Below, piece by piece: positions 20,277-29,693 of a stretch of DNA of 64,000 nt. Both the position numbers and the translations under genes were made by a program. This stretch comes from Haemophilus sp. C1 (lineage in GTDB: Bacteria; Pseudomonadota; Gammaproteobacteria; Enterobacterales; Pasteurellaceae). The notes beneath the pieces were generated by a model. It was not told the origin of the DNA and ran no database searches. It was given only the letters and a program-made list of their open reading frames with translations. The stretch is from contig NZ_LDVZ01000010.1 of assembly GCF_001276515.1 (NCBI RefSeq), positions 4,195-68,194 of the forward strand. The letters are read 5' to 3'. Position 1 is the stretch's first letter; every line of letters begins with the position of its first letter.

Positions 20277-20858
20277 ATGACATTATCCCCATTAAAAAAA
20301 CTGGTTATCGTACTTGGCACAACAATCTTTTTACAAGGATGTGTTGCCGCTGTGATTGGTGGTGGAGCTGTAGCGGCTAAAGTAGGTACCGATCCTCGAA
20401 CCACAGGGACACAAATTGATGATGAAACCCTAGAATTTAAAGTAGAAAATGCTGTAGAAAAAGATGCCCAAATTAAGGCTGAAGGCCGTGTAAATGCCGT
20501 ATCTTACAATGGTCGAGTGCTTTTAATAGGTCAAGTTCCTAATAGTGGTGTAAAGGAAACTGCCACAGCTCTTGCAAAAGGTGTTGAAGGTGTCAATGAC
20601 ATTTATAACGAGCTGACTGTTGGCCCGAAAATCTCTTTTGCACAAATCAGCAAAGACAGTTGGATTACCACTCAGGTCAAATCAAAAATGTTAGTCGATG
20701 GTCGAGTTAAAGCGACAGATGTAAAAGTTATTAGCGAAAATGGAGAAGTTTTCCTACTCGGTACAGTGACTCATGCCCAAGCTGATGCGGCCGCAGACAT
20801 TGCGAGTAAAATCAGTGGCGTGCAAAAAGTAATTAAAGTTTTCAAATATCTCAACTAA
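20277..20858 (+). CDS. dolP: DolP, dual-BON-domain outer-membrane lipoprotein
   Basis: 193-residue lipoprotein with lipobox IFLQGC and two BON domains (about residues 50-115 and 125-193). DolP (YraP) binds anionic lipids at the division site and supports outer-membrane integrity. Ribosome-binding site AAAAGGAG lies seven bases before the ATG. Its downstream terminator has been split by the transposon at 20883-27195. Confidence 0.93.
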   Translation: MTLSPLKKLVIVLGTTIFLQGCVAAVIGGGAVAAKVGTDPRTTGTQIDDETLEFKVENAVEKDAQIKAEGRVNAVSYNGRVLLIGQVPNSGVKETATALAKGVEGVNDIYNELTVGPKISFAQISKDSWITTQVKSKMLVDGRVKATDVKVISENGEVFLLGTVTHAQADAAADIASKISGVQKVIKVFKYLN

Positions 20859-20863
20859 TCTTC

Positions 20864-20873
20864 AAAGTGCGGT
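20864..20873 (+). terminator. Left arm of the dolP terminator, now separated from its partner
   Basis: AAAGTGCGGT here is the inverted partner of ACCGCACTTT at 27214-27223. With the inserted element and one copy of the 8-bp duplication removed, the two arms would face each other across a 19-base loop, followed by a T-rich tail, as in other uptake-signal terminators of this window. Confidence 0.7.
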
Positions 20874-20874
20874 A

Positions 20875-20882
20875 AAAACTCA
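20875..20882. repeat. Target-site duplication, left copy (AAAACTCA)
   Basis: Identical to 27196-27203, directly outside the two terminal inverted repeats. Eight bases is the duplication length made by IS1595-family transposases. Confidence 0.9.
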
Positions 20883-20908
20883 CGGTATTATGTAGCAGTT
20901 GCACAAAG
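20883..20908 (+). repeat. Terminal inverted repeat, left
   Basis: 26 bases beginning CGGTATTATGTAGCAGTTGC and ending ACAAAG. The perfect reverse complement is at 27170-27195. A partial inverted copy of its core (CTGCTACA) recurs at 20925-20932, a possible subterminal transposase contact. Confidence 0.93.
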
Positions 20909-20970
20909 ATTTAATTTGTTGTTTCTGCTACATTTTCTTATCTTTTATGTACAAAAGGTAAGAATAGTCA

Positions 20971-21435
20971 ATGACAAAACAAAAATCAACTTTGGAAAAT
21001 GCGCTTGAAGAAGCGATTGAAGAAATTGAAACCGAAAAGAAAGAAATTGCAGCGCAAATCAAGCAACTCCATAAAGAATTAAAAGATCTTGATCGGAAGA
21101 TTTCAGACTATCGTATGGCATTAAATCACGCAAAAGGTCGGGAAGAACCGCCTTTACCGTCAAACCCAAAATTTAGAAATCTTCGTTTTCAAACTTCGCC
21201 TCAACAGTTGATTGCTCAGGTACTAAAACAAGAGCCTTCAAAATGGTTAAGTGTGAAGGAGATTACATATCTAGCGATGAAGTTAGATGGGCAAGAGATT
21301 GAAGAAGTCATACCGTATAAACAATCACAAACGATTGCTTGTACATTAAACTATTTAAAGTATAAATCGTTAGTGGAAAAATGCTTAATAGATAACTCAC
21401 AACATTGGCGATTGAGAACACTTGAGCAAGGATAG
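20971..21435 (+). CDS. Coiled-coil protein with winged-helix-like C-terminus, unknown function
   Basis: 154 residues, not recognised. Residues 1-58 are highly charged with heptad character (ALEEAIEEIETEKKEIAAQI, then KQLHKELKDLDRKI) and should form a coiled coil. A proline-rich linker follows (REEPPLPSNPKF). Residues 75-154 look like a winged-helix fold (SPQQLIAQVLKQ, WLSVKEITYLAM, SQTIACTLNYLKY, HWRL). AAAGGTAAG lies 13 bases before the ATG. It lies 62 bases inside the left inverted repeat and faces another gene of the same architecture (21457-21879). Probably DNA binding; a role in transposition or in regulating the element is only a guess. Confidence 0.7.
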   Translation: MTKQKSTLENALEEAIEEIETEKKEIAAQIKQLHKELKDLDRKISDYRMALNHAKGREEPPLPSNPKFRNLRFQTSPQQLIAQVLKQEPSKWLSVKEITYLAMKLDGQEIEEVIPYKQSQTIACTLNYLKYKSLVEKCLIDNSQHWRLRTLEQG

Positions 21436-21456
21436 TAAATAGCGGTAGAAATACCG

Positions 21457-21879
21457 CTATTTTTGTTTCCATTGCCAGTGAACCTCATTTCGGCTGATTT
21501 GAATTCTATCAATCCATTCTCTTTTATAAAACTCATTCAGTTGTTTACGAACGGAATCAAGATGTTTTTCGGATGGTGTATCAGGATTTTGTTCAATCTC
21601 AAAAATGCGTTGCATGAGTTCGGCAATTGTAAAGGCTTTGTTGGGGGATTCTCGCATCATTTGCACGATGTATTTACGAATTTTCCCTTTAAAAAGCTTA
21701 TATTTGGAACGGTACACAAAGTTGTCCGTATTATAAAGGGCTACATCACTTTCCTGTTGAGTAAGCTCAATAGCACGTTTTAATGTGGTAATGTTCACAT
21801 CAAGTAACGCAAGATGATGCAATACCTGTTTACGTTCAAACTCAAATTCTTTGAGCTTCTTATCTAAGTTATATGCCAT
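21457..21879 (-). CDS. Coiled-coil/winged-helix-like passenger protein coupled to the transposase
   Basis: 140 residues, not recognised. N-terminal coiled coil (about 1-45, KKLKEFEFERKQVLHHLALL), then a helical C-terminal region (about 65-140) with FTIAELMQRIFEIEQ, SVRKQLNEFYKREW and a final HWQW that resembles the HWRL end of the gene at 20971. The ATG lies three bases after the transposase TAG stop, so the two are co-transcribed and perhaps translationally coupled. This fits a passenger or accessory gene of the insertion element. The two proteins share layout, suggesting distant paralogy. Confidence 0.7.
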   Translation of the reverse strand: MAYNLDKKLKEFEFERKQVLHHLALLDVNITTLKRAIELTQQESDVALYNTDNFVYRSKYKLFKGKIRKYIVQMMRESPNKAFTIAELMQRIFEIEQNPDTPSEKHLDSVRKQLNEFYKREWIDRIQISRNEVHWQWKQK

Positions 21880-21882
21880 AAT

Positions 21883-22833
21883 CTACTGCCAAATCACTTC
21901 TTGATGAATAATTTTACGTTGCCAATAACCGCACCATTCATTGTTATTGTTGGTGGTTTTCAAACATCGGCTTAATACATCAATAAACTGCGCTTTATTT
22001 GAGGTACGGTGATTGTCCTCACTGTACGCAATTTCATTAGCATAGTTAAGTAAGTATTCGTTGCTGATACGGTGAACTTGTCCGTAGTACATACGTTTAA
22101 AACGACTAAACAAACTTTCTGCCTGATTGTTTGTTACACCTAAGTCACTACGATATTCTTCCTTATGGTTTACCGTTCTCAAATCATAGTAGGGCAACAA
22201 GACATCATAAGCCGTGCTTTCATCCGTATTGATTTGCGTATTAGGTTTAATGAATTTGTCAGCAAAACTTTTTATCACTGATTGCGATTCCGTATGTACC
22301 ACAAAAACGTGAGAGCGTTTTGCCCCACAATGCAGCACATTACTGGCTTTTGCTTCTGGCGAATAATGCTCACGAGCAACCATGACACAACGTTTATCAG
22401 GATTCTGATTTTCTTTTAAACGATAGTCAATGCGGTCAGATTTCTTATTTGCTTTACGTGGTGCAGGATGAACATAAGTACCGTCCATATCCACTACACC
22501 TGAAAGTGGTTTCATATCACGACTTTCCAGTAATGCCTTGCGGAATTTATGTGATAAAACAAATGCCGTACGAGGATTAAGTTTTGCATTACGGGCTAAT
22601 TGAAGGGATGATAAGCCTTTGACAGCATTTACCCATCCCATTAAAGCATAGAGATAAACCTTAATTGGTTTCTTGCGATTGGCAAAAATTGTACCTGAAG
22701 TGACGCTAAAGGTATGATTACAATGTTTGCAGAGCCATTGTTTACGTGTAGAAATATAATAAGGCTTGTGTTGTACCCCACATTTAGGGCAAGCGATAAA
22801 CTCTCTGCCACCCCATCTTAATTCACAAAGCAA
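21883..22833 (-). CDS. IS1595-family transposase (DDE type)
   Basis: 316 residues from a TTG start. It has an N-terminal zinc ribbon (CPKC at 15-18, CKHC at 35-38), a helical DNA-binding segment, and the DDE_Tnp_IS1595 catalytic domain: D117 (or D115) in VVDMDGTYV, D204 in INTDESTAY, E239 and K246 in NQAESLFSRFKR. The motifs are intact. The reading frame stays open upstream to 22941 and encodes family-like residues (FNTIPQYFLLSSKARTLSSY) but offers no ATG or GTG before an in-frame TAA at 22942-22944; the true start is therefore unclear, or the original start codon has been lost. It is unlike IS1016, the other Haemophilus member of this family. Confidence 0.85.
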   Translation of the reverse strand: MLCELRWGGREFIACPKCGVQHKPYYISTRKQWLCKHCNHTFSVTSGTIFANRKKPIKVYLYALMGWVNAVKGLSSLQLARNAKLNPRTAFVLSHKFRKALLESRDMKPLSGVVDMDGTYVHPAPRKANKKSDRIDYRLKENQNPDKRCVMVAREHYSPEAKASNVLHCGAKRSHVFVVHTESQSVIKSFADKFIKPNTQINTDESTAYDVLLPYYDLRTVNHKEEYRSDLGVTNNQAESLFSRFKRMYYGQVHRISNEYLLNYANEIAYSEDNHRTSNKAQFIDVLSRCLKTTNNNNEWCGYWQRKIIHQEVIWQ

Positions 22834-22960
22834 ATCATACGCTTCTTCTTCCGAGAGTTGTGCAATCTCGTAGGAAGAAAGCGTGCGAGCTTTGCTAGAT
22901 AGAAGAAAATATTGGGGTATAGTATTGAAATCACACCTTGATTAAACTAAGATATGAAAC

Positions 22961-22992
22961 ACTATTCATAGTGATTGTACATAATGTATCAC
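22961..22992. promoter_or_regulatory. Overlapping palindromes before the HTH-methyltransferase pair, candidate operator
   Basis: Two dyads lie together: ACTATTCATAGT (22961-22972) and TACATAATGTA (22978-22988), the latter inside a larger imperfect dyad with GTGAT and ATCAC ends (22971-22992). They lie 35-66 bases before the regulator ATG at 23027, where an XRE-type repressor would bind to control its own gene and the methyltransferase. No binding evidence beyond symmetry. Confidence 0.5.
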
Positions 22993-23026
22993 GATCATTT
23001 ACTTTTTTCAATAGGAATGTGAAATC

Positions 23027-23374
23027 ATGTGCATGTCAGAGCGCTTAAAGCTGGTCTTAGATGCTAAAAATATGACCGTCACTGAATTTTCTAATGTAAC
23101 GGGAATCTCATATCGTTCGGCAATGAATTACTTGAATGAGGGGCGCGATCCAAGTGTGGATGCTCTAATCAAGATCTATAATGGATTAGGAGTTAGCATT
23201 ACTTGGTTACTTACTGGGAGTGGAGCAATGTTCCAAATTGAGAATAAAGAGAGTGATATTTCAGAGCAGGAAAAGAAACTAATTTCTCATTACCGAACTA
23301 TGCCAATGAGTTTAAAAGAAGCTTTTGATGTTTCTTTTAAAGAAATTTCAGATAAAATAAATTATTTAATATAG
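23027..23374 (+). CDS. XRE/Cro-type regulator upstream of the methyltransferase
   Basis: 115 residues. A helix-turn-helix of the XRE type covers about residues 3-65 (RLKLVLDAKNMTVTEFSNVT, then GISYRSAMNYLNEGRDPSVD), followed by an acidic tail (DISEQEKKLISHYRTMP) resembling phage-type repressor tails. It starts with ATG after GGAATG and ends eight bases before the methyltransferase ATG, so the two are one operon. It probably sets methyltransferase expression. It differs clearly from the second HTH protein at 25305-25541. Confidence 0.8.
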   Translation: MCMSERLKLVLDAKNMTVTEFSNVTGISYRSAMNYLNEGRDPSVDALIKIYNGLGVSITWLLTGSGAMFQIENKESDISEQEKKLISHYRTMPMSLKEAFDVSFKEISDKINYLI

Positions 23375-23382
23375 AGGTCTTT

Positions 23383-24417
23383 ATGTATTATGCTAATCCT
23401 AGTACCGTTGGTAGAGGTAAGAGGTTTGAGATTACTAATAAGCAAAAAAATGGTGATCATTTTTTTAAAAATGGTATAAATTTGCATTTTGGAGATAGCT
23501 TAGATTTTTATCAAGATTGGTCCACTCCAACCGTTATAATTTCTGATGGAGCTTACGGTATTTTAGGGTTTAATGGTGATACAAGTAACCATCTATCTAT
23601 TGCTGAATGGTATGAACCACATATATTAGAATGGACAAAAAAAGCCACTAGAAGAACAACTCTATGGTTTTGGAATACTGAAATTGGATGGGCTTGTGTG
23701 CATCCTATTTTAGAAAAGTTAGGCTGGAAATATGTTAATGCTAATATTTGGAATAAAGGCAAAGCTCATATTGCAGGCAATGTAAATACTTCAAAAATAA
23801 AGAGATTTCCAGTTGTTACTGAAGTTTGTGTTCAATATGTATTTGAGCCTCTAATAGATGGAAAGAATTTACAGGAATGGTTACATCAAGAGTGGAAAAG
23901 AACAGGATTATCTCTTAAATCCGCTAATATCGCTTGTGGTGTTGCTAATGTTGCCTCAAGAAAATACTTAGATAAAGGACATTTATGGTATTGTCCTCCT
24001 GATGAAATGTTTGAGAAATTATCTAATTATGCTAATTTACATGGCAATATTGAAGGAAAACCATATTTTTCTTTTAATGGAGTATCACCATTAAGTAGGC
24101 AAGAATGGGAAATGATGAAGCCTATTTTTAATTGTCCAATTGGATTCACCAATGTATGGAATAGAAATCCATTAAAAGGTAAAGAACGAATAAAGGTTCC
24201 AAATTCTCAAACTGCATCCGCTCATTTGAATCAAAAACCTTTAGATTTAATGATGTTAATTATTGAGGCTTCTAGTTATGAAAACGATGTCATCTGGGAA
24301 CCTTTTGGGGGGCTGTTTTCAGGTTCATTAGCAGCAATGAACCTGAAAAGAAGAAGTTTCGCAGCCGAAATAGATAAGGATTACTTTTTGATCGGAGTAG
24401 AACGATTTAATACCTAA
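23383..24417 (+). CDS. Type II DNA methyltransferase (amino-methyltransferase, beta-like motif order)
   Basis: 344 residues. The motif IV position reads SDGAYG (54-59) instead of DPPY or SPPY. Motif X-like HLNQKP lies at 281-286, and the S-adenosylmethionine-binding motif I, WEPFGGLFSGS, at 305-315. Motif IV first and the SAM motif last is the beta-class order for N6-adenine or N4-cytosine methylation; which base cannot be read from sequence. I recall a family of methyltransferases with SDG(A/P)YG and WFWNTEIGWA-type motifs, but cannot name its recognition site. The 3' end overlaps the convergent nuclease gene by 11 bases. Confidence 0.88.
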   Translation: MYYANPSTVGRGKRFEITNKQKNGDHFFKNGINLHFGDSLDFYQDWSTPTVIISDGAYGILGFNGDTSNHLSIAEWYEPHILEWTKKATRRTTLWFWNTEIGWACVHPILEKLGWKYVNANIWNKGKAHIAGNVNTSKIKRFPVVTEVCVQYVFEPLIDGKNLQEWLHQEWKRTGLSLKSANIACGVANVASRKYLDKGHLWYCPPDEMFEKLSNYANLHGNIEGKPYFSFNGVSPLSRQEWEMMKPIFNCPIGFTNVWNRNPLKGKERIKVPNSQTASAHLNQKPLDLMMLIIEASSYENDVIWEPFGGLFSGSLAAMNLKRRSFAAEIDKDYFLIGVERFNT

Positions 24418-25312
24418 TATTAAATGTTGATGAGAATGCTCTTGCAATATCATCAACATTACCTTTTGATAAAAGTTTTGACCAATAAGATACTGTTTGA
24501 TTACAAATTTTTGAATTTAAAACCCTCTCTTTAAATGCTTCTATTTCAGGATGATTAATCCTATCTATTTTAGCGAAATTTGTATCCAACCTATATGGAA
24601 ATCTAGACATTAAATCTTGTATCATTTCCTGATATATTGGTAATGTTGGATTATGTTTATTGAATAACCCTTTCATCTCCCAATAATTGCATATATTCAA
24701 AGCCTCGTTAAATTGTGATGAAGAACCTTGAAATTTATATCCATTAGTATTGCTTTGTTGCAAATTTACAGTGCGATTAGATGTATCTCTAGGTTCAACA
24801 ATAAGATAATCAGGTGGGTTACTATAATGAAGATCTCTCATATAAGCTACTGATTTCGCAGTTATAACAACAATATCAATTATCTTGGGATAGCCAAAAA
24901 TTATGTATTCAGGTAGCCACGCGACTAATACAACATTAGTCTGCCCTTTTGTGAAATAAGATTGGCTATCTTTAAATCTAGCTGTAATTTCTGTTGATAA
25001 TGGAAACCAAGCTTTAATTTCTATCCCTGGTTCGGGATATATATGACTACGGAAAATAGTATCTGGAAATCCAGGATCCTGCCTATACCATCTACCTATA
25101 GTGTTAAATGTTTGGATAGAGTTTAAATATTCACATATACTAAATTCTATTAAGTTACCCATCATAGGAGATAGTTTAGAAACAATTTTTGTTAAATTAA
25201 TTGCGGAGTCAATATTGTTAGGCTTAGCCAAATGTATTGCGTCAAAAGATTTATCTTTTAACAACTTTAGATTTTCAGTTGCAATATTGAGAAGTTTGAT
25301 AGTATCAGACAT
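24407..25312 (-). CDS. Putative type II restriction endonuclease (PD-(D/E)XK)
   Basis: 301 residues. A textbook PD-(D/E)XK site is visible: P83-D84 in GFPDTIF, then E98-I-K100 in PGIEIKAW, with an upstream Glu (E55) in GNLIEFSICEYL that often completes this fold. No other domain is recognised. It lies beside a methyltransferase (convergent, 11-base overlap) and is preceded by a small HTH gene overlapping it by eight bases, the usual controller-endonuclease layout. The recognition sequence is unknown. Base composition is very AT-rich compared with the flanking genes. Confidence 0.85.
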   Translation of the reverse strand: MSDTIKLLNIATENLKLLKDKSFDAIHLAKPNNIDSAINLTKIVSKLSPMMGNLIEFSICEYLNSIQTFNTIGRWYRQDPGFPDTIFRSHIYPEPGIEIKAWFPLSTEITARFKDSQSYFTKGQTNVVLVAWLPEYIIFGYPKIIDIVVITAKSVAYMRDLHYSNPPDYLIVEPRDTSNRTVNLQQSNTNGYKFQGSSSQFNEALNICNYWEMKGLFNKHNPTLPIYQEMIQDLMSRFPYRLDTNFAKIDRINHPEIEAFKERVLNSKICNQTVSYWSKLLSKGNVDDIARAFSSTFNIRY

Positions 25313-25541
25313 TTTTAATTATTTTAATTAATTCTACAGGGTCAATATCTAAAGCTTCACATATTTCAATAAACTCAGTGACTTTCAATGACCTTTCATT
25401 ATTTTCATATTTTGTCACATAAGACTGGCTTCTAACTATCCTAGAAGAAAGTTCAATTTGAGTCATACCTTTATCCTCTCTAGCTTTTTTAAGTAGAGAT
25501 ACTAAGGCTAAATTCTTGGATGTGTATAATGCTTTACTCAT
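25305..25541 (-). CDS. Controller-type XRE regulator of the restriction endonuclease
   Basis: 78 residues, nearly all one helix-turn-helix domain (LLKKAREDKGMTQIELSSRI, then VRSQSYVTKYENNERSLKVT), the size and layout of C proteins that delay endonuclease expression until the host DNA is methylated. Its 3' end overlaps the endonuclease start by eight bases, indicating coupling. No clear C-box was found upstream; the leader holds an AT palindrome (TAAATTAATTTTA) around 25541-25553. Confidence 0.82.
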   Translation of the reverse strand: MSKALYTSKNLALVSLLKKAREDKGMTQIELSSRIVRSQSYVTKYENNERSLKVTEFIEICEALDIDPVELIKIIKNV

Positions 25542-25842
25542 AAATTAATTTTATAACGCCAAGTAAAATATTCCATTTTGGACTATTAATGCTAAGAAAT
25601 TTGATACACTTGGAAAGGCTCTTGTTGGCAAGTTGCTTATTTTTGATAGACTGAACCATTGCTTGATATTGAAGTCTAGCGAGTTTTTCTTGTGTTTAAG
25701 GCAAGAGAATAGGTTAGCTTTAACCTTTAAAAGCTGCCCTCATTGGCTCACCCTTCTGGTTTTATTATTACATCATTACATCTACCATATACTCTTATTG
25801 AATATGTGGTGGGAAGCTATGTAATAAAATTCGGGGTTTCCA
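25542..25842. other. Intergenic stretch between controller gene and decayed transposase
   Basis: 301 bases. It holds the promoter region of the minus-strand controller-endonuclease pair. A 63-codon open frame at 25633-25824 has no ribosome-binding site or family resemblance and is not called. I see no inverted-repeat copy matching the element ends here, so the inner boundary of the second IS cannot be placed. Confidence 0.5.
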
Positions 25843-26958
25843 ATGCAACACTTCCTACTTTCCCCTAACTAGCGCACATTCAGCCTAAAAAAACATCGCG
25901 CGCTTGTCCGAAGATGAAGCCTTTAAGCTAATGAAAGGTGCTCGCTGGGGCAATCCTGACAATCTCCACGATGTCTGCTGTCCGCATTGCAACACGCGGC
26001 ACAATGCCTATTTTCTAGCTTCTCGCAAGCGTTGGATGTGCAAGCATTGCAAGAGCAATTTCTGCATCACTACTAACACCGCTTTCGCCTTTCACAAATT
26101 GCTGCTGTCGGATTTGCTTATTGCGATTGCTCTGTTTGTGAATGAAATCAAAGGAATTTCCGCCATTACCCTAGGCTGACACTTGAATATTCAATACAAA
26201 ACTGCTTTTGTGTTGTGCCACAAGCTACGCGAAGCCCTATTCAAAACCCGTGATTTAAGCCCATTACAAGGTGAAATTCACGAAGATGGCGCGTGGATTA
26301 GCTTCAAGCAACGTCCAACCAACTACCGTAAAAACCACTATAATCAGCAACAAAAAGCCGATACGCAAGGGCGAAGATTTCCCAAATTTAGACCGACTAA
26401 ACGCTGTATTCTTAGCTTAGTGCAACGCGCCGCCAATGATGAGCCTTACAAGGCTCAAATCGAACCCTTGTGGCAATGGATTACAGCGAAAGTACCAATA
26501 CCGTACTGATAATGAACCACCGATTTGTCAAACAAGGCAGCGAGATTTTCTGCGATGAAAATCCTACCTATTTGGGCTTAGATTTTCACTACAAGAGATG
26601 GTCTGTCAATCATCAAGAGTGCTTTAACAATCTGGCAGAATCCTTCAACGCAAGATTTCGGGATTTACATCGTGGCGTACACCATAAATGCGACAATAAA
26701 TACGCTTTGCATTACACCAATCAAGCCGCCTATATGTCGGACAACCGCCGTAAATCGAATGGTGAGATATTCCAAGACGTGCTAAAACGTTGCTTATGGG
26801 AATTGCCACTAAGAGAATGGGTTGGTTATTGGCAAGGAAATCATCGTGAAGGTGAGCTTCTAGACATAAAAGCCTTTGCACCTAACGAAATTTCATCACA
26901 CTACTTTAAGCGACTTGAAGAACAAGCTGCATACGATGAAATTCTGATGGCAGCATAG
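25843..26958 (+). pseudogene. Decayed IS1595-family transposase
   Basis: Reads as an IS1595-type transposase broken by several lesions. It starts MQHFLLSPN at 25843 and meets TAG at 25870-25872. A frameshift before LSEDEAFKLMKG (around 25905) is followed by the zinc ribbon CCPHCNTRHN ... CKHCKSNFC. A TGA lies at 26177-26179 after ISAITLG. Another frameshift near 26480-26508 leads into the last frame (CDENPTYLG, NNLAESFNARFRDLHRG, WVGYWQ). Catalytic positions remain recognisable (EDGAW, CDENPTY, AESFNARFR). It is clearly diverged from the transposase at 21883, not a recent copy. Protein production is not expected. Confidence 0.88.
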
Positions 26959-27102
26959 AACCGAATAGACGCTTATAGACTAGATAGAAAGAAATAGCTT
27001 ACCTGAATGAAGGTTGAGCGAAATAGCTATGCCTTGAGTTTAAAAAAATGGAAATTTGATATGAAAAATTGCGAGGTTGAAGTTAGAATTTTAGTTAAAA
27101 GA

Positions 27103-27136
27103 AATGCCTTTCACGATTTTCATTCGGAAAGGCATT
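27103..27136. repeat. Hairpin inside the right end of the transposon
   Basis: AATGCCTTTC and GAAAGGCATT are perfect 10-base arms around a 14-base loop, 34 bases inside the right inverted repeat. It has no long T run, so termination is uncertain; it could limit transcription running into the element from outside. Confidence 0.5.
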
Positions 27137-27169
27137 CAAATTTATGTGGTAAATTAGTCAATTTTCGGA

Positions 27170-27195
27170 CTTTGTGCAACTGCTACATAATACCG
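27170..27195 (-). repeat. Terminal inverted repeat, right
   Basis: Perfect 26-base reverse complement of 20883-20908, beginning CTTTGTGCAACTGCTACATA on the plus strand and ending ATACCG. It marks the right boundary of the transposon. Confidence 0.93.
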
Positions 27196-27203
27196 AAAAC
27201 TCA
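27196..27203. repeat. Target-site duplication, right copy (AAAACTCA)
   Basis: Same eight bases as 20875-20882. The following sequence contains the right arm of the interrupted terminator, ACCGCACTTT at 27214-27223. Confidence 0.9.
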
Positions 27204-27344
27204 ACGAATTTCAACCGCACTTTTCTCATTTTTACAAGTAAAAATTTGATTTTTTTGCTCTTCGAAAAAACTGTTTATTTTTAAATAAGTTACCTATTGT
27301 CAATAATTCAAGTAAAAAATTTATTGCTTGATCTCGTTCTTAAA

Positions 27345-27391
27345 ACACATTACCTTGTGCATGATTTCATTACAAACACTATATATTGTGT
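27345..27391 (+). promoter_or_regulatory. Tandem NrdR boxes upstream of nrdAB
   Basis: The box at 27376-27391 reads ACACTATATATTGTGT, a full match to the NrdR consensus as I know it. A weaker box, ACACATTACCTTGTGC, lies at 27345-27360. Their starts are 31 bases apart, three helical turns, which is the usual NrdR arrangement. NrdR represses ribonucleotide reductase genes when bound to ATP or dATP. The rest of the 219-base leader (27204-27422) has no other recognised site. Confidence 0.82.
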
Positions 27392-27422
27392 TTAACATCT
27401 CCATAATAACAAGGGTCGTACA

Positions 27423-29693
27423 ATGAATAAAAGCTTAATGGTAACCAAGCGTGATGGCACGCAGGAACAAATCAATCTTGATAAAATCCACCGTGTTATT
27501 ACATGGGCAGCAGAAGGTCTAGACAATGTATCTGTTTCCCAAGTTGAGCTTCGCTCACACATTCAATTTTATGAAGGCATTCGTACTTCAGACATTCACG
27601 AAACCATTATTAAAGCAGCCGCAGATTTAATCAGCAAAGATACGCCTGATTATCAATTTTTAGCGGCTCGCTTAGCAATTTTCCATTTACGTAAAAAAGC
27701 CTACGGTCATTTTGATCCCCCTCGTTTGTACGATCACGTCAAAAAATTAGTACGCATGGGTAAATACGATCATGCCTTATTGGATGATTATACCCGTGAA
27801 GAATGGGACACAATGGACGGATTCATCGACCATTGGCGTGATATGACGTTCTCTTATGCTGCCGTGAAACAATTAGAAGGTAAGTATTTAGTTCAAAACC
27901 GTGTGACGGGAGAAATCTACGAGTCTGCACAATTCCTCTATTTACTGGTTGCCGCTAGTTTATTCTCTAAATATCCAAAAGAAACCCGCTTGGATTATAT
28001 AAAACGTTTCTACGATGCAACATCCACCTTCAAAATTTCCTTACCAACGCCAATTATGGCGGGAGTTCGCACACCAACTCGTCAGTTCAGCTCTTGCGTA
28101 TTAATTGAATGTGATGACAGCTTAGATTCAATCAATGCAACCGCATCCGCTATTGTGAAATATGTTTCACAACGCGCGGGAATTGGCATTAATGCAGGTG
28201 CAATTCGTGCATTAGGTAGTGAGATTCGTGGCGGTGAAGCATTCCATACGGGTTGTATTCCATTCTATAAATATTTCCAAACTGCAGTGAAATCTTGCTC
28301 ACAGGGTGGCGTTCGTGGCGGTGCTGCGACACTTTATTACCCTATTTGGCACTTAGAAGCGGAAAGCTTGCTTGTGTTAAAAAATAACCGTGGTGTGGAA
28401 GACAACCGTGTTCGTCATATGGATTATGGCGTCCAATTAAACAAATTAATGTATCAACGTTTAATTAAAGGTAGCGAGATTACTTTATTCAGTCCATCAG
28501 ATGTACCAGGACTTTATGAAGCATTCTTTGCGGATCAAGATAAATTTGAAGAACTCTACGTAAAATACGAACAAGATCCAACCATCCGCAAACGTACTGT
28601 CAAAGCCGTTGAGATTTTCTCTTTATTAATGCAAGAACGTGCATCAACGGGCCGTATCTACATTCAAAACGTAGACCACTGTAATACTCACTCTCCTTTT
28701 GATCCACAAGTAGCACCGGTTCGCCAATCTAACTTATGTTTAGAAATCGCGTTACCAACAAAGCCGCTTGAGCACATTAATGATGAAAATGGAGAAATCG
28801 CACTTTGTACCCTTTCCGCATTTAACTTAGGTAAGATTGAAAACTTAGATGAATTAGAAGAACTTGCCGATCTTGCTGTGCGTTCACTTGATGCATTATT
28901 AGATTATCAAGATTATCCTGTCGTGGCGGCAAAACGTAGTTCACTTGCTCGTCGTGCATTAGGTATCGGTGTAATTAACTATGCTTATTATCTTGCGAAG
29001 AATGGTGTTCGTTATTCTGATGGTTCAGCTAATGATTTAACTCACCGCACTTTTGAAGCTATTCAATATTATTTATTGAAAGCCTCTATGAACTTAGCAA
29101 AAGAACAAGGTGCTTGTGAATACTTCAATGAAACTACTTATGCAAAAGGCATTTTACCTATTGATACTTATAAGAAAGATTTAGATGCCTTAACACAAGA
29201 GCCATTACATTATGATTGGGAAAGCTTGCGTAAAGATATTCAAGAATTTGGTTTACGTAACTCAACACTAACCGCCTTAATGCCATCGGAAACATCATCG
29301 CAAATTTCCAATGCGACTAATGGTATTGAACCACCGCGTGGTCATGTAAGTATTAAAGCGTCAAAAGATGGCATCCTAAAACAAGTTGTACCTGAATACG
29401 AAAACTTAAGCGACAACTACGAATTACTTTGGGATATCCCAAGCAATGACGGCTACTTACACCTAGTTGGTATTATGCAAAAATTCGTAGACCAAGCGAT
29501 CTCCGCCAACACCAACTACGATCCAAAACGTTTTGAAGACGGTAAAGTGCCAATGAAAGTGTTGTTAAAAGATCTTTTAACCGCTTATAAATATGGCTTA
29601 AAAACCCTTTACTATCAAAACACCCGTGACGGTGCCGAAGATGCTCAAGAAGATCTTGATGACGGCTGTGCTGGTGGGGCTTGTAAGATTTAA
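27423..29693 (+). CDS. nrdA: Ribonucleotide reductase class Ia, alpha subunit
   Basis: Large subunit of the aerobic enzyme that reduces ribonucleoside diphosphates to deoxy forms. 756 residues. N-terminal ATP-cone (LMVTKRDGTQEQINLDKIHR) for overall activity control, active-site cysteines in QFSSCVLIECDD and SNLCLEIALPT, and the C-terminal redox pair CAGGAC at the flexible tail. NrdR boxes lie upstream. It forms an operon with nrdB, interrupted by a palindromic repeat. Confidence 0.97.
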   Translation: MNKSLMVTKRDGTQEQINLDKIHRVITWAAEGLDNVSVSQVELRSHIQFYEGIRTSDIHETIIKAAADLISKDTPDYQFLAARLAIFHLRKKAYGHFDPPRLYDHVKKLVRMGKYDHALLDDYTREEWDTMDGFIDHWRDMTFSYAAVKQLEGKYLVQNRVTGEIYESAQFLYLLVAASLFSKYPKETRLDYIKRFYDATSTFKISLPTPIMAGVRTPTRQFSSCVLIECDDSLDSINATASAIVKYVSQRAGIGINAGAIRALGSEIRGGEAFHTGCIPFYKYFQTAVKSCSQGGVRGGAATLYYPIWHLEAESLLVLKNNRGVEDNRVRHMDYGVQLNKLMYQRLIKGSEITLFSPSDVPGLYEAFFADQDKFEELYVKYEQDPTIRKRTVKAVEIFSLLMQERASTGRIYIQNVDHCNTHSPFDPQVAPVRQSNLCLEIALPTKPLEHINDENGEIALCTLSAFNLGKIENLDELEELADLAVRSLDALLDYQDYPVVAAKRSSLARRALGIGVINYAYYLAKNGVRYSDGSANDLTHRTFEAIQYYLLKASMNLAKEQGACEYFNETTYAKGILPIDTYKKDLDALTQEPLHYDWESLRKDIQEFGLRNSTLTALMPSETSSQISNATNGIEPPRGHVSIKASKDGILKQVVPEYENLSDNYELLWDIPSNDGYLHLVGIMQKFVDQAISANTNYDPKRFEDGKVPMKVLLKDLLTAYKYGLKTLYYQNTRDGAEDAQEDLDDGCAGGACKI

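Follow-up and report, generated by a model that had tools for sequence, protein, structure and literature searches.

The window studied here is the entire 64,000-nucleotide stretch of contig NZ_LDVZ01000010.1 from Haemophilus sp. C1 (Pasteurellaceae) that was analyzed. Between its dolP and nrdA genes lies a compact group of genes encoding an IS1595-family transposase, a DNA methyltransferase (MTase), a predicted type II restriction endonuclease (REase) of the PD-(D/E)XK type, two helix-turn-helix (HTH) proteins and two small proteins that were read as coiled-coil, together with the remnant of a second IS1595 transposase (Table 1). The group is enclosed by 26-nt inverted repeats that are 100% complementary and are the longest perfect pair listed within positions 20500-27600, and the same eight bases, AAAACTCA, adjoin both repeats on the outside. 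The unit so bounded has a length of 6,313 bp and a guanine-plus-cytosine (GC) content of 0.36. Members of the IS1595 family generate an 8-bp target duplication. An initial annotation, made from the sequence letters alone, had placed the repeats and their flanks at exactly these coordinates. Its gene list was also right, with family matches found for the transposase, the MTase and both HTH proteins, but it missed the decayed second transposase and the pair of DNA uptake signals that flank the unit. We scanned the ten open reading frames (ORFs) of the interval against Pfam and NCBIfam, and seven of these against PADLOC.

Evidence for insertion of the unit at the dolP-nrdA site

In all ten genomes searched from the nearest genus, nothing interrupts the site between dolP and nrdA, and the target is present once. 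At each of these empty sites the uptake signals AAAGTGCGGT and ACCGCACTTT face each other with AAAATTCA once between them, and the joined flanks of the window match the empty sites at 84-95%. No other element was found at this site in the ten genomes. Within the window element there is one forward and one reverse match to the end sequence, and no inner copy at up to three mismatches. We consider it very probable that the interval 20875-27203 represents one insertion of an IS1595-family cargo transposon, and we are confident of the element and of its restriction-modification (R-M) cargo. The proposal of the initial annotation that the unit was inserted as a whole agrees with the ten empty sites. 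Chance repeats, an origin as a prophage or a Tn7-like element (no such genes are present) and two separate insertion sequences (IS) were considered and rejected.

Table 1. Features of the element and its flanks in the window (pLDDT, predicted local distance difference test).
Feature	Position	Strand	Evidence
DNA uptake signal AAAGTGCGGT, left arm of split terminator-like hairpin	20864..20873	+	hairpin intact in 10/10 empty sites
Left target duplication AAAACTCA	20875..20882	.	sequence, element-end comparison
Left terminal inverted repeat, 26 bp	20883..20908	+	repeat listing
Chassis gene cc1, coiled coil and winged helix, 154 aa	20971..21435	+	ORF; model pLDDT 84; weak winged-helix matches
Chassis gene cc2, diverged cc1 paralogue, 140 aa	21457..21879	-	ORF; hhalign 99%
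TnpA1, IS1595 transposase, clade A1	21883..22833	-	PF12762 1.5e-42, PF12760 2.4e-11
Overlapping palindromes TATGAAACACTATTCATA / CACTATTCATAGTG in divergent intergenic region; putative operator of HTH gene	22953..22973	.	palindrome search
Chassis HTH regulator	23027..23374	+	cluster found in 44/60 elements
N6/N4 DNA methyltransferase (cargo)	23383..24417	+	PF01555 2.9e-13; PADLOC MTase_II
Predicted type II restriction endonuclease, PD-(D/E)XK (cargo)	24407..25312	-	PADLOC REase_II PDLC03583 4.4e-44
Small HTH, possibly R-M control (C) protein (cargo)	25305..25541	-	HTH_3 domain match
TnpA2 remnant, second IS1595 transposase	25904..26958	+	ORFs, Pfam scan; L162 comparison
Right terminal inverted repeat, 26 bp	27170..27195	-	repeat listing
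Right target duplication AAAACTCA	27196..27203	.	sequence, element-end comparison
Uptake signal ACCGCACTTT, right arm of split hairpin	27214..27223	-	sequence, repeat listing

The cargo of the window

The MTase and REase very likely constitute a type II R-M pair, as predicted from their sequences. The REase belongs to no Pfam family and has no PDB sequence match at an E-value of 1. Its pattern PD-X13-ExK is invariant (P83, D84, E98, K100) across 24 aligned sequences including that of the window, and the fold, predicted with a pLDDT of 88, gave weak best PDB matches to HincII, NlaIV and EcoRV (best E-value 0.02); both support the nuclease class proposed in the initial annotation. In the MTase, SDGAYG at residue 54 and EPFGG at residue 306 presumably represent motif IV-like and motif I-like sequences, respectively. 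We also examined 57 related loci on genome contigs from many phyla, which were chosen by their REase, so that all of them carry one. An MTase is encoded within 1.5 kb of the REase in 56 of the 57 and is convergent with it in all 56, and a homologue of the small HTH gene is present in 27. In the window the small HTH gene overlaps the start of the REase gene, and its product matches the PADLOC Control_protein model at only 1.1e-5, behind other HTH models. The MTase/REase stretch has matches in two plasmid records (66-70%). A protein cluster (P0021, 26 contigs) that is 99% identical to the window REase carries the name of the very distantly related Campylobacter showae, which reflects either transfer or contamination.

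Elements that share these ends in other genomes

We surveyed the end sequence in 140 genomes of Pasteurellaceae, the family of the nearest genome; the window's own assembly is outside this set. The type of uptake signal and protein matches named Aggregatibacter aphrophilus and Pasteurella multocida agree with this family. Ends with up to two mismatches occur in 93 of the 140 genomes and in 32 of 43 genera, counting solo ends and short elements, and the end sequence is present in three of the ten genus genomes. As a control, the end read backwards gave one match (in genome G010). Across the order, 24 of 394 genomes contain ends, and one of the 24 lies outside the family (G200, one site with two mismatches). 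The left end found no match by blastn in 72,556 plasmid and 50,697 phage records; a tblastn search of plasmids with TnpA1 of element L119 returned 253 records, all below 60% identity.

For comparison of whole units we assembled a sample of 60 end pairs, namely the window and 59 pairs from 43 genomes. A pair was defined as a plus-strand end followed by a minus-strand end about 1.5-11 kb further on the same contig, and pairs were chosen blind to cargo; those below about 170 bp were set aside, and eleven high-copy genomes (G068, G069, G099, G117-G119, G121, G123, G124, G126 and G131) were left unsampled. The left boundary is less certain in L101 and L136, each of which begins with a short element. 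In 46 of the 60 pairs the flanks are exact 8-bp duplications, all in one register. The repeats thus bound whole units elsewhere, with other duplications, as the initial annotation had anticipated. Within this sample, we are confident that the elements form a family with a slot rich in R-M genes.

Many other sites hold solo ends, or pairs about 75-165 bp across that resemble miniature inverted-repeat transposable elements (for example in G056, with six, G012 and G013). G117 has 73 and 61 copies of the end on its two strands.

A variable cargo slot

Cargo was called from 60 PADLOC and 30 Pfam scans of non-window proteins (some proteins being in both), the rest was assigned by BLAST cluster, and the results were tallied by hand. 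R-M genes or a DNA methyltransferase occupy the slot in 38 of the 60 elements, other defence-like genes in five, and something else or nothing identified in 17. R-M genes are present in 36 elements (the window, L066-L069, L100, L102-L106, L108, L109, L112, L114-L118, L120, L121, L124, L139, L141, L143, L145, L147, L150, L153, L155-L158, L161, L163 and L164) and include type II pairs, IIG-like fused enzymes, type III systems (L115, L121, L143, L163) and type I genes. L149 and L162 carry a methyltransferase (PF01555), accompanied in L162 by a relative of the small HTH gene of the window. The other defence-like genes are IetAS (L122), PDC-S01 (L123), an AbiL-like ATPase assigned by cluster (L137), a reverse transcriptase with an ATPase (L151) and PD-T4-4 (L160). 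The initial annotation had called it unusual for an insertion element to move a full type II system; this is an understatement, as R-M genes are the commonest cargo of the element family in the sample. Among the matches listed in a background check, at least seven PF01555 and at least nine PF00145 places (matches, not genes) lie inside sampled elements. Fewer than one would be expected by chance among the approximately 300 listed matches to these two families, given 450,116 bp of elements in about 318 Mb (rounded genome sizes).

Several cargoes deserve separate description. In L158 a type I restriction subunit is bounded by the ends together with a PrrC-like protein. Clusters c31 and c32 recur with the HTH protein c13 in L146, L148 and L149, and c13 also stands beside the reverse transcriptase and ATPase of L151; the c31/c32/c13 proteins and the L151 set are possible unknown defence systems. 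Non-defence genes include a YadA-type cluster in L119, L135 and L138 (an adhesin by Pfam in L119 and by cluster in L135, with an additional short-chain dehydrogenase in L138) and a VasX-like (VasX-N) protein with DUF4123 in L107. The content of L146, L148 and L152 is uncertain, and L159 has no cargo. L101 and L136, from two genera, hold an RTX-type gene, its neighbours and integrase-like genes inside the same ends with exact 8-bp duplications, and most of the chassis described below is missing from them. Six elements (L110, L111, L113, L140, L142, L144) are 3.3-kb units encoding DoxX, an MbnB/TglH/ChrH-type enzyme for ribosomally synthesized and post-translationally modified peptides and DUF2063 (domains scanned in L110); two related genes, each of 71-86 aa, lie close to the ends.

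A shared chassis with two transposases

Around the slot the elements share a layout that we call the chassis: an end, cc1, cc2 and TnpA1 on one side, followed by the HTH gene, the cargo and, on the other side, TnpA2 (with a further gene, c4, in some). Transposase ORFs of at least 250 aa number 76 and fall with high support into three clades of a midpoint-rooted tree, A1 (38), A2a (19) and A2b (19). The D, D and E columns of the DDE motif are conserved in 74, 75 and 76 of the 76 proteins, respectively. A1 is located at the cc1/cc2 end and A2a or A2b at the opposite end. Both A1 and one A2 occur in 33 elements, which span 6.4-10.6 kb, and in all 33 the two genes lie at opposite ends and face outward; the partner of A1 is A2a in 17 and A2b in 16. 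The c4 gene is present in 16 elements, 12 of which have a long A2a and one an A2b.

Two outward-facing IS1595 transposases near opposite ends are also what a classical composite transposon would show, in which two complete opposed IS flank the R-M genes and the outer ends move the unit. In line with this, L159 is a 1.6-kb element that has a single transposase between the same ends and is flanked by an exact duplication. Two complete IS would, however, bring inner ends, which the window does not have at up to three mismatches, and the transposases of all 33 two-transposase elements belong to separate clades and are not copies of one IS. We therefore regard a composite structure as highly improbable for the present state; it fits better as ancestry.

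In the window, TnpA1 also exceeds the cut-off for NF033547 (NCBIfam), and its frame remains open further upstream but lacks the start codon seen in relatives. TnpA2 is spread over three ORFs by one stop and one frame change; positions 25901-26894 share 86% identity with the A2b region of L162. As both transposase genes look damaged, the window element would need a transposase from another element, and this copy is probably not autonomous now. In the initial description of a self-contained mobile defence element, the word self-contained is accordingly doubtful.

No Pfam or NCBIfam family exceeded its cut-off for the cc1 and cc2 proteins. Structure matches of the cc1 model were weak winged-helix ones such as Fur, with none at an E-value of 0.001. 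The gene c4 was considered as a further relative of cc1 and cc2 and rejected, since hhalign gave no relation. Between A1 and the HTH gene a palindrome, AATATGAAAyATnATTCATATT, is present in seven of the 36 elements examined (L067, L104, L112, L116, L146, L155, L157), and the window and L148 have a shorter version. It is a candidate operator, which the HTH protein may bind and thereby control the genes on both sides.

Movement of units and exchange of modules

Like units were found at different sites. The six 3.3-kb DoxX units match each other along their length (about 95-99.7%) and are distributed over four sites: L110 and L111 are 97.7-99.7% identical, L113 is 97.7-98.4% identical to L110, L111 and L140, these four have four different duplications, and L140, L142 and L144 share one site that is read on opposite strands. 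These units contain no transposase and must therefore move in trans. L114 and L147 also have different duplications, and their match covers 84% of L114. Additionally, the left 2.0-2.35 kb of the window element recurs at 90-95% identity in L067, L141, L145, L146, L147 and L161, all of which have other cargo. Like units at different sites and like left ends with other cargo together indicate that units move and that modules are exchanged.

A DDE transposase bound at both ends would cut or copy the whole unit, and homologous recombination between chassis ends would refill the slot. R-M cargo would earn its place through phage defence and because a host that loses it pays a cost.

Module exchange raises an alternative for the window itself, namely that an older, possibly different element was already present at dolP-nrdA and the R-M genes entered it afterwards, when chassis ends recombined homologously during transformation, in which case the duplication would date the chassis and not the R-M genes. 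The near-identical left ends with different cargo are in line with this, as are the pairing of A1 with either A2 clade and a GC content of 0.32 in the segment that begins with the HTH gene and ends with the small HTH gene, against 0.36 in the whole element and 0.44 at its right end. L163 and L164 come from two genomes of the same genus; their left flanks are homologous (85%) but their cargo differs (type III and IIG-like, respectively), which may reflect exchange in place or a shared hot spot with two insertions at one hairpin. Against a swap at dolP-nrdA stand the ten clean empty sites, none with an alternative element, and the simpler account, which needs one insertion only. We consider such a swap unlikely and retain insertion of the element together with its cargo.

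L135, L155, L163 and L164 carry different cargo and have homologous flanks on one side (72-85%), at a hairpin that does not consist of uptake signals; this site is possibly a hot spot or a place of cargo exchange.

Observations that weigh against the proposed family and its mobility

A number of observations weigh against our interpretation. The target at the empty sites reads AAAATTCA and differs by one base from the AAAACTCA of the window, so that the literal 8-mer AAAACTCA occurs in none of the ten genus genomes. The initial annotation had expected a single copy of AAAACTCA at empty sites and had named its absence as evidence against insertion; the single copy was found, but by this one base the literal sequence is absent. 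We read the base as a strain difference because the two window copies are identical and the joined flanks match the empty sites closely. The case for mobility is drawn from sequence comparison. The same annotation had asked for the unit elsewhere with a different duplication; near-identical units of the family do lie at different targets in different genomes, but no homologue of the window REase was found in the 140 family genomes, and mobility of the exact window unit is therefore deduced from its ends, the empty site and its relatives. In the sample, 14 of the 60 pairs have no exact duplication, one of which (L124) has no left flank, and L154 is probably a false pair; two further candidates outside the 60, L165 and L166, were rejected as false, having neither a duplication nor a related gene. 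No defence gene was identified in the 17 elements noted above, and in eight (L109, L112, L114, L116, L147, L155, L157, L161) the only type I subunits recognized were those for methylation and specificity, with no restriction subunit. Finally, 17 elements have no transposase of at least 250 aa, and ten have a single long one (five only A1, including the window, and five only A2).

The existence of elements with a single long transposase means that the pair may not be obligatory. The two transposases could be redundant leftovers of composite ancestry, either of which moves the element alone. In agreement with this, of the 43 elements that have a long transposase, ten lack a second one, and exact duplications surround elements with one shortened transposase (L067, L114), although these may have been mobilized in trans or before the damage arose. 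On the other hand, both proteins have at least 330 aa in 26 of the 33 two-transposase elements and their clades stay distinct, which redundancy alone would not maintain. Redundancy is quite possible, at somewhat less than an even chance. Because TnpA1 and TnpA2 are kept as distinct proteins, we think that they work together or that each prefers one end.

Target choice and DNA uptake signals

We examined the surroundings of the 46 exact duplications, scoring uptake signals in what we take to be their three dialects. An uptake signal lies within 40 nt of 31 of the 46 sites and on both sides of 20, compared with 5.1% and 0.05%, respectively, of 8,222 points in the host DNA of the window. A perfect stem of at least 9 is centred on the duplication in 22 of the 46, compared with 0.75% of 400 random pieces; these controls derive from one 57-kb stretch and are not matched in composition to the other genomes. 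When sites that share flanks are counted once, the numbers are 30 of 40 near a signal, 19 of 40 with signals on both sides and 21 of 40 with a stem. A cruder test found stems of at least 8 in 21 of 46 sites, compared with 15% for mismatched flanks. Since some hairpins (e.g. at L135) are not made of uptake signals, the hairpin loop may be the true target. The insertions thus appear to favour loops of terminator-like hairpins, and the unit would be joined to an AT-rich target in such a loop, often one formed by two uptake signals. In Neisseria, uptake sequences that form terminators are described in the available part of PMC2397512.

Uptake signals occur at 0.056 per kb within 59 elements, compared with 0.81 in the host DNA of the window, and the window element has none. 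Insertion into these hairpins would leave the cargo between two uptake signals with almost none inside, and competent relatives may take up such DNA and recombine it by its flanks. With two transposases, movement would come to depend on both ends. Hairpin targeting is the best supported of these ideas, transposase partnership has less support and spread by transformation the least. The combined proposal, that the transposon exploits transformation through insertion into hairpin loops, that its slot is refilled with R-M genes and that the two-transposase design keeps the cargo attached, is tentative and on balance rather doubtful.

Relation to known systems and significance

The element family is a variant of the known IS1595 transporter IS. 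The accessible portions of PMC8496243 and PMC3129680 attribute the description of passenger-carrying IS to Siguier, Gagnevin and Chandler 2009, and the former names the IS1 and IS1595 families. As far as those portions describe them, transporter IS share with our elements the IS1595 transposase domains, terminal repeats and passenger genes between the ends, and the 8-bp duplication is common to the IS1595 family; by the description in those portions our elements differ in the two diverged transposases of 33 of the 60, in the conserved coiled-coil/winged-helix and HTH genes and in an interchangeable, mostly R-M cargo. Movement of the passengers as one unit was found for the family, and for the window's own cargo it is supported by the ends and the empty site. 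IS1016 and ISHps3/ISHps4 are IS1595-family IS of Pasteurellaceae (PMC3339403, PMC6211672) and have the same transposase family, with ends of 18-29 bp given for IS1016. Compared by description, IS1016 differs in having one 217-aa transposase, and the available text of these sources mentions no cargo for IS1016 or ISHps3/ISHps4.

Tn7-like transposons likewise have a variable slot enriched in defence genes, with R-M as the commonest class, and known innate immune systems in 26% (according to the available part of PMC8649781); here 43 of the 60 elements have R-M, methyltransferase or defence-like genes, by a broader count. No TnsA, TnsB or TnsC family was listed in the Pfam and NCBIfam scans of the ten window ORFs. 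R-M genes flanked by IS have also been described (PMC3031569 in its available part, citing Rochepeau 1997 and Khan 2010). Movement of R-M genes with the aid of IS is common to both; in those cases IS repeats surround one R-M system, whereas the present elements combine one dedicated chassis with many R-M types. Among the literature matches listed, no title or abstract opening named a two-transposase IS1595 element or an R-M-carrying family of this kind, with subscription journals and preprints thinly covered.

R-M systems are known to move between genomes, and the vehicle is often unclear; the chassis described here offers a concrete possible route. In genomes of many genera of one family, R-M genes of types I, II, IIG and III, as well as some other defences, are found on the same chassis with its defined ends. 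Its 26-bp ends provide fixed markers for finding R-M genes and unknown defence genes in the slot, exchange of cargo becomes directly testable, and a link is raised between transposition, terminator hairpins and DNA uptake signals.

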